Below are positions 17,457 to 23,458 of a stretch of 64,000 nucleotides of DNA, in pieces. The translations under genes and the position numbers were made by a program. Under the pieces are notes generated by a model, which was given only the letters and a program-made list of their open reading frames with translations, did not search any database and was not told where the DNA came from. This DNA comes from Leptospirillum sp. (GTDB lineage: Bacteria; Nitrospirota; Leptospirillia; Leptospirillales; Leptospirillaceae): the NCBI GenBank assembly GCA_027315205.1, contig DAHUYM010000005.1:71638-135637 (forward strand), read 5' to 3'. Each line of letters begins with the position of its first letter. The first letter of the stretch is position 1.

Positions 17457-17725
17457 TTCCCGCTTCCGAATCCGGAAACGCGGTTTCCAGGACGCAAGAA
17501 CCTCTTCCAGAAAAGCGTTCTCTAAGAAAAATAATACATGTTCTATAGTACCTTATAATAAAGAATATCCCTTCCATCAATTTTCAACGGTGATTTTCTA
17601 TTGTCATAGGGCGAACGGGACGTCTACGAAGTCGTTTCGACGCATTCCACACGTACCAAAGGAAAAATCGGGATGCCAACGATGTCGTCCCGAGCTTTTC
17701 CACCTCCTTGAAAGGGGCAAACGAA

Positions 17726-18253
17726 ATGGACATAACCCTATCCCGTAACGTCAGGACATTCATGGCCGCGGCACTCCTTGTCGCCGGCCTTCTCTTCTCC
17801 ACGACCCAAGTCGCGTCCGCCAACGAATTCAAACACGGGCACGCGTGCGAAAGATTTCACCACATGATGCTCCATGGGGGACCTGTCGGGTTCTACCTTT
17901 TGAACCAGGACGCTCTCGGGCTCACGAAGAGCCAGGTCGGGAAACTCTCCGATCTCAAGCTCTCCTTTGCAAAAACGTTCATCCGTGAAAAATCCGAGAT
18001 CCGGATCCTTCACCTGGAAAACATGAAACTCTTGATGCACCGTCGGGTCGACACAGCCCAGGTCCATAAGAACGTGAACGCGATCCTCGGACACAAGAAG
18101 AAAATCAAACTCGCGTTCGTGGACATGATTTCGAACGCCAACCGGGTTCTCACTCCCGAACAGTTCCAGAAGTCCAAAAAGCTCTTCCGTGCAATGATCC
18201 TCAGGATGCACGCCGGGAGGGCGCAGGGAGGGAATGCAATCCATAAGGCCTGA
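17726..18253 (+). CDS. Spy/CpxP-like periplasmic stress protein
   Basis: A 175-aa protein. The ATG at 17726 has an AAAGGGG site 8 bases upstream and was preferred over a TTG at 17708. A signal peptide ends near STTQVASANE. The mature part is Lys/His-rich and helical. LGLTKSQVGKLSDLK and VLTPEQFQKSKKLF are the two LTxxQ repeats that define the Spy/CpxP family, here as LTKSQ and LTPEQ. Family members are ATP-independent chaperones or metal-responsive inhibitors of envelope sensors. The His-rich segment HGHACERFHHMMLH may bind metal. The response regulator and kinase follow directly, as in Cpx-type loci. Confidence 0.8.
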   Translation: MDITLSRNVRTFMAAALLVAGLLFSTTQVASANEFKHGHACERFHHMMLHGGPVGFYLLNQDALGLTKSQVGKLSDLKLSFAKTFIREKSEIRILHLENMKLLMHRRVDTAQVHKNVNAILGHKKKIKLAFVDMISNANRVLTPEQFQKSKKLFRAMILRMHAGRAQGGNAIHKA

Positions 18254-18286
18254 CGTCACAAGTGGAAGACTTGATCGGTTCGCCGC

Positions 18287-18315
18287 CGGATGCCGCACGT
18301 ATGAGGTGGCATCCG
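18287..18315 (+). other. Intercistronic hairpin between the Spy-like gene and the response regulator
   Basis: CGGATGCC (18287-18294) and GGCATCCG (18308-18315) are perfect 8-bp complements in the 134-base gap. No T-run follows, so it may stabilise the upstream mRNA end or set different expression of the two parts rather than terminate. Confidence 0.5.
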
Positions 18316-18387
18316 CCGCGGAGACCGGGCGTAAAAGAATGAAGGAAACAGAACTCCCGGAAAATCGATACGCGAGGAGGGCGCAAG

Positions 18388-19071
18388 ATGATGAATGTCC
18401 TATTGGTGGAAGACGACCCGGTCATCGGGCGGACACTTTCGATGAGCCTGCCCTACAGAGGATTTCATGTCACGGTTTCGGGTACGATTCTTGAAGGGTG
18501 GGACGACTTCCGGTCCGGCTCTTTCGATCTCGTCTTGCTCGACATCCAGCTTCCCGACGGTTCGGGGTTCGATATTTGCCGCCGGATCCGGGAGGTCGAT
18601 GGAGAGAAACCGATCGTCATGATCACCGCGCGAACGGATGAACCTTCTGCGGTGAAGGGACTTCTGGACGGGGCGGATGACTATATCCGGAAACCCTTCG
18701 GCCTGGACGAACTGACTGCGCGAATGAACCGACTTCTCGGGCGGAACAAGGCCCGTAAAGAGCTCATTCTGTACCGGGCGGTAAGGATCGATCTCGCACA
18801 GCGAAAAGTCTGGATCGCCGGGAAGGAAGTCTCTTTCGGAAAGAGGGAATTCGACATCCTTTCGATTCTCGCCCGGCATTCAGGGGACGTGGTGACACGG
18901 GAAGAGATCCTGGACAGCATCGACGATGAGGCGGATCTTTTCGACCGGACCATCGATTCCCACCTGAGCCATGTCCGGAAAAAAATACGGACCGCCGTCG
19001 GAGACGAAATACAGATCATTCCGGTCTACGGCGTGGGGTATCGTCTCGAATCGCACGCAGGAGCCACATGA
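18388..19071 (+). CDS. OmpR/PhoB family response regulator
   Basis: A 227-aa protein. The receiver domain (residues 1-115) has the acidic pair EDD at 8-10, the phosphoacceptor Asp52 in LVLLDIQLPDGSG, the switch Thr in MITAR and Lys in KPF. The C-terminal winged helix (about 130-225) includes FGKREFDILSILARHSGDVVTREEIL and DRTIDSHLSHVRKKI, typical of Trans_reg_C. The start at 18388 follows GAGGAGGGCGC. The stop overlaps the kinase start by ATGA. It probably controls the Spy-like gene upstream, by analogy with Cpx/CpxP. Confidence 0.94.
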   Translation: MMNVLLVEDDPVIGRTLSMSLPYRGFHVTVSGTILEGWDDFRSGSFDLVLLDIQLPDGSGFDICRRIREVDGEKPIVMITARTDEPSAVKGLLDGADDYIRKPFGLDELTARMNRLLGRNKARKELILYRAVRIDLAQRKVWIAGKEVSFGKREFDILSILARHSGDVVTREEILDSIDDEADLFDRTIDSHLSHVRKKIRTAVGDEIQIIPVYGVGYRLESHAGAT

Positions 19072-20492
19072 ACCGTAAGACCCTCGTAAAGCTATTGGTT
19101 CTCAGTCTTTCCGTCTCTCTTTTCATCAGCACCGTTCTTCTTTACAGCTTCCGGAAGCTCGAGGAATCGAGGGGTTCGGTGACGCGGAAACCGGGACTTT
19201 TTCTCCTGGCGCAAATCGCTGAAAGCGAACCGGCCTATTTTGCCCTCCGGCAATTCGACCGGATCGCGGCGGCGCCGGGAATCCGGCATCCCCGGAAAAT
19301 CTGGGTCGTCGGAGAAGGCGGAGTGATCCTTGGATCGTCCCCTCCGTCGACTCCCCTTCCGATCGCGTGGAAAGAGCTGGAAATCCCCAAGGAAATCCAT
19401 GAGTTCACGGCCCATTTCGGTCCCTTCGACGTCACCCCCGACTTCTTCCTGATACGCCTGAACGCGCCGGTTCCCCTCTATCTTCTCCTGCAGATTTCCA
19501 CCCGATTGATCTTCATCCACGAGTTCCTGCCGCGGGCGATTTTTCTTCTCGCCTGCATGAGTCTTTCCGCTTTCCTCGGCCTTTTGATCACATTCGTCTA
19601 CCTTAGGCGAAAATCCCAAAAAGCCAAGGAAGTACTCGGACGCCTTGAAAAAGGGGAATTGAAAGCCCGTTTCCCGATCACCAAGCTTGACGAGATCGGA
19701 AGCCTCATGACCGATTTCAACCGGATGGCCGACGAAATTGAAAACCTCATCACTCGGATCGAAGAAACCGAAAGAGCCCGGCAGGAACTGCTCCAGGAGC
19801 TGGGACACGATCTCAGAACCCCGTTGACGGGACTCAGGACGGCCGCCGATACACTGGCGGCACACAGCCGGGAAATGTCCCATGAAGAACGCGAGCGATT
19901 CATCCGGATCATCCAGACAGAGAGCCTCTATTTTCTCCGGATGATCGAGAACCTCTTCCTGATCGCCGAAGTCGCCGAGCCCCGATATCGGAAGACCGCC
20001 GAAACCATCGATCTGGGAGATCTCGTCGAATCCGAGATCGACCAACAGAAAAACCAGGATTCCCCGGTCCTTTCCTGGACGTTCTCTCCTCCTTCAACCC
20101 GACAGCTGGTTGTCGGAGATCCCGTTCTTTTGAAAAGGCTTTTCAGGAACGCGCTCGAAAACGCGCGCCGTTACGCCCAATCTCGGGTTTCGGTAACGTT
20201 CGACGAGCCGAAAGGCCCGGACACGATTCCGATGGCGAAAATCCGGATCCAGGACGACGGGCCCGGCATTCCCTCCGAAGAGATCCAGATCTTCGGAAAA
20301 CGGCGTTCCAGGCGATTTTCCGCAGACGACAAGGTTTCGGACCCGACGGTTTCGATGGGTCTGGGATCGGTCATCATGGCCGCCATCGTACGGGTCCACG
20401 GAGGTTCCCTGTCCGTCCAGAACCTCAATCACTCCGTCCCGGAGAAACATGGTACGGAAGTCTTGATCCAGCTTCCCGCCTCCATCCGTTGA
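19068..20492 (+). CDS. Two-component sensor histidine kinase (HAMP-HisKA-HATPase)
   Basis: A 474-aa protein. TM1 spans about 8-28, a periplasmic domain of about 130 residues follows, and TM2 spans about 160-185. The HAMP domain (about 185-235, LKARFPITKLDEIGSLMTDFN) leads into the dimerisation helix with His247 in LGHDLRTPLTG, the phosphorylated residue. The ATPase domain shows an N-box (RNALENARRYA), a G1 box (QDDGPGIPSEE) and a G2-like box (MGLGS) before a terminal VRVHGGSL. It pairs with the regulator it overlaps. The periplasmic part could sense the Spy-like protein or envelope stress; that is inference from gene order. Confidence 0.93.
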   Translation: MNRKTLVKLLVLSLSVSLFISTVLLYSFRKLEESRGSVTRKPGLFLLAQIAESEPAYFALRQFDRIAAAPGIRHPRKIWVVGEGGVILGSSPPSTPLPIAWKELEIPKEIHEFTAHFGPFDVTPDFFLIRLNAPVPLYLLLQISTRLIFIHEFLPRAIFLLACMSLSAFLGLLITFVYLRRKSQKAKEVLGRLEKGELKARFPITKLDEIGSLMTDFNRMADEIENLITRIEETERARQELLQELGHDLRTPLTGLRTAADTLAAHSREMSHEERERFIRIIQTESLYFLRMIENLFLIAEVAEPRYRKTAETIDLGDLVESEIDQQKNQDSPVLSWTFSPPSTRQLVVGDPVLLKRLFRNALENARRYAQSRVSVTFDEPKGPDTIPMAKIRIQDDGPGIPSEEIQIFGKRRSRRFSADDKVSDPTVSMGLGSVIMAAIVRVHGGSLSVQNLNHSVPEKHGTEVLIQLPASIR

Positions 20493-20662
20493 TTTCGGGT
20501 TTCATATCCCACTGGGAACGAGATTCTTAAGCGATTCGTCTGTAGATTGTTGACTCAACAATGATTCACGTTCCCTGGCCATTTTTCGGAGATGATCCGG
20601 ATTTTGACCAGAAAAATCGGGATTCCACACTTTTTCACGATTTTTGATTTAGGATCATTTTC

Positions 20663-20728
20663 GGGCGGGTTATTGGAATAAAAAATGAAGGCCACCTCCT
20701 TCGGCTACCCTTTATTCCTGGCCCGCCC
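20663..20728. repeat. Nested long inverted repeat
   Basis: GGGCGGG (20663-20669) pairs with CCCGCCC (20722-20728). Inside it GGAATAAA (20675-20682) pairs with TTTATTCC (20711-20718). Inside that GAAGG (20687-20691) pairs with CCTTC (20698-20702). This gives 20 paired positions in one nested fold with small asymmetric internal loops. It resembles a REP-type element or a folded RNA. Confidence 0.6.
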
Positions 20729-20806
20729 CTTTCCGGCATGACTCCCATCCATGCCATGCATCCTGCCTGTCCCTACCCTCCAACACCCATCTCGCCGTCT
20801 GAAGGA

Positions 20807-20840
20807 TCCAGGGAGGCATTTCGGAAGGAACCTCCCTGGA
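20807..20840. repeat. Perfect 10-bp inverted repeat
   Basis: TCCAGGGAGG (20807-20816) and CCTCCCTGGA (20831-20840) are exact complements around a 14-base loop. A second stem, AATTCTC/GAGAATT (20845-20870), follows 4 bases later. Confidence 0.6.
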
Positions 20841-20930
20841 CTCCAATTCTCGCGGACACGCCGGAGAATTCTTTACAAAGAGTCCGTTCGGTTTAGACGG
20901 AAATTTCAAACGATAGCAGCACACAAAAAA

Positions 20931-20947
20931 GGCGGGACACTCCCGCC
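20931..20947 (-). terminator. Intrinsic terminator of ppsA (bidirectional shape)
   Basis: GGCGGGA (20931-20937), loop CAC, TCCCGCC (20941-20947). On minus the stem is followed by TTTTTT (complement of 20925-20930); on plus it is followed by TTTT. It lies 50 bases past the ppsA stop. Confidence 0.88.
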
Positions 20948-20997
20948 TTTTCCAACAACTTTTCCGTCTCTGGACGGAAATCCTGTCCGTTACCGTA

Positions 20998-23397
20998 TTA
21001 CCTGCCCATCTGACGTTCCGCCTCCAGGATCTTGAGCGTCGTCTTGATCACGGTATCGGGGTTCAGCGAGATCGACTCGATTCCCATCCGTACCAACGCT
21101 TCGGCCACTTCGGGAAAATCGCTCGGGGCCTGGCCGCAGATGCCGGAATGCACCTTGTTCCGCTTGGTCCCTTCGACCGCCATACGTATGAACGCCATGA
21201 CGCCCGGATCCCGTTCGTCGAAGGATTCTGCGAGGATTTCGGAATCCCTGTCGACGCCAAGGGTCATCTGGGTCAGGTCGTTCGATCCGACGGAAAACCC
21301 GTCGAACAGCTTTGAGAACGCGTCGATCTGTATGATGTTGTTCGGAATCTCGCACATCACGAAAATCTCGAGGCCGTTTTCGCCGCTCTTGAGACCGTTT
21401 TCGCCCAGAACCCTGATTACGCCCTCCCCTTCATGGATGGTCCGGCAGAAGGGAATCATGATCCGGACATTGGTCAGCCCCATATCGTTTCGGACCCGAC
21501 GGATGGCCTGGCATTCGAGAGCGAAGCCTTCACGGTAACGGGGACTCACGTACCGGGATGCACCCCGGAATCCGAGCATTGGATTTTCTTCGTGTGGCTC
21601 GAAATAGGTTCCCCCGATCAGGCTTGCGTATTCGTTGGACTTGAAATCGCTCATCCGGACAGTCACCGGCTTGGGGTAGAACGCCGCAGCGATCGTACCG
21701 ATTCCGAACGCGAGCTTCTCGACAAAGTATTCCTTCATGTTGGAATAGCCTGCCGTCATGCCTTCGATCTGGGCCCGCACTTTCGGGTCGGACACTTTTT
21801 CGGGGTGGACCAGGGCCATGGGATGGATCTTGATGAAACCGTTGATGATGAACTCCATGCGGGCAAGTCCCACACCGTCGTTCGGGATGAACGAGTGGCT
21901 GAAGGCCTGGTCGGGATCTCCCAGGTTCATCATGACCTGAGTCTTCGGCCGTTCGAGCCGGTCGAGCTTGGTCCGGTCCACATGGAACTTCAGGATCCCT
22001 TCGTACACCATTCCGGTATCGCCCTGGGCGCAGGAAACGGTCACTTCCTGCCCATCGGTCAGGTCGTCGGTCGCCGCTTCGGACCCGACGACAGCCGGGA
22101 TCCCGAGTTCGCGACTCACGATGGCCGCATGGCAGGTCCTGCCGCCCCGGTTGGTGATGATGGCCGCGGCCGTTTTCATCACCGGCTCCCAGTCGGGAGT
22201 CGTCGTCTCAGCGACGAGAACCTCGCCGGGCTTGAAATCCCGAATCTGGCCCAGTTCGCGGATCACGTGGACCTTTCCGGAAGCGATCTTCTGGCCGACC
22301 GACTTTCCCCGCACGAGTACACGACTCTTTTCGTCGAGCGTGTAGGCTTCCAGATAATCGTCCTTCTTCTGGGACTCGACCGTTTCCGGCCGGGCCTGAA
22401 CGAGGAAGATGTCTCCCGAGATCCCGTCCTTGGCCCACTCCATGTCCATCGGACGGCTCTCTCCCGCTTTCCTGGAATAATGGTCCTCCACCTTTACGGC
22501 ATAGTCGGCCAGCACGAGAATCTCGTCGTTCGTCAGGCAGAACTTCCGTCCTTCTTCCGCGGAAACCCGTTCATTGTGGACCGTCTCCTTCGTCTTTCCT
22601 TCCGAATAAACCATACGGAACTGCTTCTGCCCGAGGTTTTTCCGGATGATGGACCGATGACCGGTCTTGAAGGTCGGCTTGAAAACATAGAACTCGTCCG
22701 GATCCACGTTCCCCTGGACGACGTTCTCGCCCAATCCGTAAGCACCCGTGATAAACACCACGTCCCTGAAGCCGGTTTCCGTGTCGAGGCTGAACATCAC
22801 TCCGCTCGACCCCTTGTCGGAGCGGACCATCTTCATGACCCCAATCGAAAGGGCGATGTCGAAGTGATCGAATCCCTTGTCGACCCGATACGAGATCGCC
22901 CGGTCGGTAAACAGGGAGGCAAAGCACTTGAGACAGGCTTCCTTCAGTTCCGCGAAACCCCGGATATTGAGATAGGTATCCTGCTGGCCCGCGAACGACG
23001 CGGTTGGTAGATCCTCTGCAGTCGCCGAACTCCTTACGGCGACGTCCGGGTTTTCCCCGTACTCCTTCCCCAGGATTTCGTAGCCCTTCCCGATTTCCAT
23101 CCAGAGATCCTCGGGAATCGGGGCACCCAGAATAAGATCCCTCGCACGTTTTCCGCGCTTCGCCAAATCATCCATATTGTGGCGATCAAGACCGCTTAGA
23201 GTCTGCTTCAGCTGGTCCCGTATCCCGGCAGAATCGAGGATATGCCAGTAGGCATCCGCCGTGATGGCGAAACCGTTGGGCACCTTGACCCCCTGGGGCA
23301 CCAGCTCCTGATAAGCCTCACCCAATGATGCGTTCTTGCCTCCCACAAGATGAAGGTCTGTCAGTTTGATCTCATTAAAAAAACGGATGTATTTCAT
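20998..23397 (-). CDS. ppsA: Phosphoenolpyruvate synthase (pyruvate, water dikinase)
   Basis: A 799-aa protein, the family's usual length. The start at 23397 has GGGAG just upstream; an ATG 18 bases earlier is less likely. The N-terminal ATP-grasp-like domain opens LHLVGGKNASLGE and includes VRSSATAEDLPTASFAGQQ. The phosphohistidine domain has the catalytic His in NRGGRTCHAAIVSRELGIPAVVG (about residue 420). The C-terminal TIM barrel binds PEP/pyruvate (SVGSNDLTQMTLGVDRD, with Cys in SGICGQAPSD). The enzyme makes PEP from pyruvate, ATP and water, a step that reductive-TCA autotrophs and gluconeogenic cells need. Confidence 0.95.
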   Translation of the reverse strand: MKYIRFFNEIKLTDLHLVGGKNASLGEAYQELVPQGVKVPNGFAITADAYWHILDSAGIRDQLKQTLSGLDRHNMDDLAKRGKRARDLILGAPIPEDLWMEIGKGYEILGKEYGENPDVAVRSSATAEDLPTASFAGQQDTYLNIRGFAELKEACLKCFASLFTDRAISYRVDKGFDHFDIALSIGVMKMVRSDKGSSGVMFSLDTETGFRDVVFITGAYGLGENVVQGNVDPDEFYVFKPTFKTGHRSIIRKNLGQKQFRMVYSEGKTKETVHNERVSAEEGRKFCLTNDEILVLADYAVKVEDHYSRKAGESRPMDMEWAKDGISGDIFLVQARPETVESQKKDDYLEAYTLDEKSRVLVRGKSVGQKIASGKVHVIRELGQIRDFKPGEVLVAETTTPDWEPVMKTAAAIITNRGGRTCHAAIVSRELGIPAVVGSEAATDDLTDGQEVTVSCAQGDTGMVYEGILKFHVDRTKLDRLERPKTQVMMNLGDPDQAFSHSFIPNDGVGLARMEFIINGFIKIHPMALVHPEKVSDPKVRAQIEGMTAGYSNMKEYFVEKLAFGIGTIAAAFYPKPVTVRMSDFKSNEYASLIGGTYFEPHEENPMLGFRGASRYVSPRYREGFALECQAIRRVRNDMGLTNVRIMIPFCRTIHEGEGVIRVLGENGLKSGENGLEIFVMCEIPNNIIQIDAFSKLFDGFSVGSNDLTQMTLGVDRDSEILAESFDERDPGVMAFIRMAVEGTKRNKVHSGICGQAPSDFPEVAEALVRMGIESISLNPDTVIKTTLKILEAERQMGR

Positions 23398-23458
23398 CGA
23401 CTCCCTTTCAGGCAAAAAAAGAGCGGACCCCTCCCCTTTGCGGCGAAGGAGGTAAAAA

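Follow-up and report, generated by a model that had tools for sequence, protein, structure and literature searches.

Between a sensor histidine kinase gene and the convergent ppsA gene lies a non-coding gap crowded with inverted repeats, and the question raised by this locus is whether these stems act as RNA, belong to a mobile palindromic element or merely accompany a rearranged gene junction. The gap of 505 bases (20493-20997) is bounded by the stops of the kinase gene (20492) and of ppsA (20998, - strand). It was studied within a window of 64,000 nucleotides, i.e., the whole stretch of DNA analysed, from a 2.0-Mb genome of the Leptospirillum family (an iron-oxidiser relative). To the left of the gap, Pfam analysis identified a der-like GTPase, a Spy/CpxP-like small protein, an OmpR-type response regulator and the HAMP/HisKA/HATPase kinase, whose gene closes the Spy-like/response regulator/kinase block. 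The Metal_resist match of the Spy/CpxP-like protein was weak and under the family cutoff. Two small ORFs, 20712-20924 (-) and 20751-21035 (+), were rejected as genes, as they had no Pfam family and overlapped the stems or the terminator. All the stems named in a first-pass annotation of this DNA were present in the sequence (Table 1).

Table 1. Genes, stems and terminator at the kinase-ppsA junction, in window positions.
Feature	Position	Strand	Remarks
Sensor histidine kinase gene	19068..20492	+	Pfam HAMP, HisKA, HATPase_c; homologues in family genomes
Outer pair GGGAACG/CGTTCCC	20514-20520 / 20569-20575	.	Encloses palindrome ATTGTTGACTCAACAAT (20546-20562)
Helix	20588-20598 / 20652-20662	+	Unbroken only with G-U pairs on +; weak alone (z -1.4)
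ATGATCC/GGATCAT	20592-20598 / 20652-20658		Perfect stem
AAAAATCG/CGATTTTT	20612-20619 / 20638-20645		Stem inside helix 20588-20662
Nested long hairpin GGGCGGG...GGAATAAA / TTTATTCC...CCCGCCC	20663-20728	+	10 pairs (2 G-U) + 8 pairs + inner hairpin
Branched domain closed by CCGTCTGAA/TTTAGACGG	20795..20900	+	Holds the 10-bp and 7-bp stems
10-bp stem TCCAGGGAGG/CCTCCCTGGA	20807-20840		In branched domain
7-bp stem AATTCTC/GAGAATT	20845-20870		In branched domain
Bidirectional intrinsic terminator AAAAGGCGGGA-CAC-TCCCGCCTTTT	20927..20951	.	T6 on ppsA side (-), T4 on kinase side (+)
Hairpin TTTCCGTC/GACGGAAA	20961..20980	.	Just beyond the interval of the first-pass annotation
ppsA, PEP synthase gene	20998..23415	-	Pfam; family homologues 82-94% identical; end convergent with kinase

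Perfect stems, defined as arms of at least 7 bp with a loop of 3-60, numbered 13 in the gap versus 1.8 expected, and none of the 200 shuffles reached this count. The background comprised 88 intergenic regions of at least 200 bp from approximately 324 kb of the same genome, with genes called, and dinucleotide-preserving shuffles. In this comparison the gap ranked first in stem count (the next region had 6) and second in folding (z = -4.1), and these statistics are optimistic, as the locus was picked for its stems. When G-U pairs were allowed, 20 helices were counted on the + strand (shuffle mean 8.3, maximum 19) and 21 on the - strand (mean 9.1, maximum 20), numbers that are high yet near the shuffle maximum. 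The stems are genuine and jointly above chance. A single inverted duplication was rejected as their source because their centres are many and different, and folding placed the main helices side by side, able to form together. Next after the kinase-ppsA gap in stem richness among the convergent gaps sampled was L080:2177-2988, with 6 perfect stems versus 1.6 expected.

The whole gap folded with a z of -5.0 on the + strand and -3.9 on the - strand; without the terminator, the values were -3.6 and -1.7, respectively. The segment 20493-20583, containing the outer pair and its palindrome, folded no better than shuffles (z -0.6/-0.9), and 20584-20660 gave -1.4/-0.7. Markedly lower values were obtained for the hairpin 20661-20730 (-4.3 on +, -3.5 on -) and for the branched domain 20793-20903 (about -3.9 to -4.6 on +, -3.2 to -3.5 on -). 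The excess is carried by three pieces, 20661-20730, 20793-20903 and the terminator at 20927-20951; the two domains and the terminator hold more structure than composition predicts, and the left half does not. The unusual stem density claimed in the first-pass annotation was borne out in total (13 versus 1.8, first of 88) but not as a uniform property, the left half being at chance level. Both domains exceeded their shuffles more on the + strand than on the - strand; the abutting helices 20584-20730 gave -4.0 (+) versus -1.8 (-), and 20793-20903 gave -4.6 (+) versus -3.5 (-). Five G-U pairs on the + strand complete three helices (20588-20662, 20663-20728 and the closing helix 20795-20900), and the - strand likewise has helices completed by G-U pairs. 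The preference for the + strand depends on few base pairs and is only a hint, pointing to RNA on that strand and not to a DNA palindrome.

The bidirectional terminator proposed earlier was found at 20927-20951, with T-tracts on both strands, as an 11-bp GC-rich hairpin with a 3-base loop, an A-tract on one side and a T-tract on the other. The family members compared all came from outside the host's own genus. In the family genomes read, a GC-rich hairpin with a T-tract followed shortly after the ppsA stop, and in several of these relatives der was the convergent partner of ppsA. The genus whose ppsA is most similar has a terminator (AAGGCGGG...CCCGCCTTTTT) that resembles the one at 20927-20951. 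The latter is an ordinary terminator common to both convergent genes. As for the suggested regulatory platform acting on the convergent transcripts, the comparison backed the shared terminator and nothing further.

Eight relatives, belonging to three genera, have der facing ppsA, mostly at a distance of 100-165 bases. The kinase-ppsA junction was absent from every relative examined, with no kinase adjoining ppsA. In the relatives, the block is found at another place in the genome and runs response regulator, kinase, Spy-like; in the window (17708-20492) the Spy-like gene comes first, then regulator and kinase, with the whole block placed between der and ppsA. Judging from gene order, the gap is probably a young junction unseen in relatives, which would explain why only the terminator has a counterpart there. 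An orphan response regulator paralogue with 70% DNA identity to the window's regulator (L088:3753-4442, contig C22 of G000) lies on another contig, without a kinase or Spy-like neighbour, and is perhaps a relic of block duplication. Upstream of the Spy-like gene, TTCCATCAATTTTCAACGGTGATTTTC (17572-17600) matches the family motif TTCCATCATTTTTCAAGAATT, which is located between the kinase and Spy-like genes in most family genomes read and occurred once in the 324 kb searched. TTCCATCAATTTTCAACGGTGATTTTC probably serves the Spy-like gene as operator or promoter, and the neighbouring response regulator perhaps binds this putative site.

At the gathering threshold, the single Rfam match in the window was a tRNA outside the gap. 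In the permissive search (E up to 10), the matches in the gap were weak terminator matches only, the best scoring 14-21.5 bits versus thresholds of 40-56, consistent with the earlier remark that the stems fit no known RNA class. No credible match to the gap DNA was found among 60 relatives; of the family DNA matches of 20-55 bases, those inspected lay in or overlapped long reading frames and were chance-like. When the nested hairpin and the two abutting helices were searched as covariance models in 21 family genomes, the original was the sole match; apart from the terminator, the gap had no counterpart in 20 family genomes by either DNA or covariance search. The model of the branched domain recovered only the original in 148 genomes, bar one weak match in G003 (24 bits, E 0.03), which apparently falls in coding sequence and was set aside as chance. 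Within its own genome the gap was a single copy according to blastn and three single-sequence covariance models. The first-pass annotation had listed a single, unconserved copy among the findings that would together speak against it; the gap is indeed single-copy, and a homologue is absent from the relatives compared. Because the gap is single-copy and without an Rfam match, it is neither a repeated element nor a known RNA family. Plasmids, phages and viral contigs yielded nothing except a 34-base phage match at chance level. A decayed second spy copy gave no match in the gap, and a replication terminus or origin was rejected, since the GC skew keeps the same sign across the site. No sigma-70-type promoter-like site was found in 20400-21100, and literature searches on Leptospirillum small RNAs brought up no directly relevant paper.

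Our best, tentative explanation (probability about 0.42) is that the gap is the 3' region of the kinase operon, specific to this lineage and rich in hairpins, which probably functions as RNA on the + strand and ends at the shared terminator. What was observed is that the two genes converge and share a terminator, that two domains fold strongly and that the gene order is rearranged. The Spy-like/response regulator/kinase block would have come between der and ppsA and thereby created a new 3' intergenic region. The kinase operon transcript would continue for approximately 460 bases after the kinase stop, up to the shared terminator. Its hairpins 20663-20728 and 20795-20900 would function as RNA, most likely by protecting the 3' end of the mRNA and keeping it insulated from transcription of ppsA; release of a 3'-UTR-derived small RNA from the kinase transcript is possible. 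This reading is favoured by the stem excess over shuffles and other intergenic regions, by two domains with z near -4 besides the terminator, by + strand folding, and by the terminator-type hairpin after ppsA and the der-ppsA convergence in relatives. The lack of a homologue and of a promoter-like site, the chance-level left half, the thin strand preference and the choice of the locus for its stems count against it. A serious rival, and a possible one, is a neutral rearrangement scar with a function for the terminator only, the remaining hairpins being relics of genes or terminators since lost, or products of chance. A junction absent from all relatives examined, a gap without a homologue, a left part at chance level and a locus chosen as the most stem-rich would all be expected of such a scar; 13 perfect stems versus 1.8 expected (rank 1 of 88) and two independent domains with z near -4 would not. 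The statistics lean to a working RNA in the kinase transcript over a scar, and an RNA function of the gap is plausible.

The succession of abutting hairpins, branched domain and terminator, together with the + strand preference, would also suit a separate small RNA gene, restricted to this species, that lies on the + strand, is driven by a promoter of its own and ends at the shared terminator. We consider this unlikely, given the promoter search, the Rfam matches limited to weak terminator-like ones and the lack of a homologue. Rather improbable is a species-restricted structured RNA of approximately 450 bases on the + strand, composed of two abutting hairpins, the branched domain and the terminator. 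AGACGGAAA (20895-20903) can also pair with 20961-20969, around the terminator and past the interval first annotated; in such an RNA it would have one possible partner within the branched domain and another beyond the terminator, so that termination in the stretch between kinase operon and ppsA could be modulated by the fold. The palindromic stems, lying in non-coding DNA where gene order was rearranged, could suggest a mobile palindromic element (of the REP/BIME type or another) or an old one-copy remnant. The REP/BIME-like proposal of the first-pass annotation did not survive the copy count (one in the genome by blastn and covariance models), and with no plasmid match and a phage match of only 34 bases, at chance level, a mobile origin is very improbable.

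Should the structured part work as RNA, the locus would offer a datable example of RNA structure newly formed at a rearrangement junction, in the shape of a small RNA or 3' UTR that arose after the gene block moved. Otherwise, the locus is a warning that, where rearranged genes end convergently, stem counts can mimic an RNA gene.

Among known systems, the gap shares short palindromic extragenic stem-loops with REP/BIME elements. REPs occur as many similar copies per genome (PMC12306157), whereas the gap has one copy only, and its stems are longer and mixed, without a common consensus. Like an intrinsic terminator between convergent genes, it has the same GC-rich hairpin, both T-tracts and the post-ppsA position seen in relatives, but a bidirectional terminator accounts for the right-hand 25 bases only and not for the remaining stems. 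By sequence and predicted folds, the gap is akin to a structured 3' UTR or a 3'-UTR-derived small RNA, with a long non-coding stretch after a gene, several hairpins and a terminator end.
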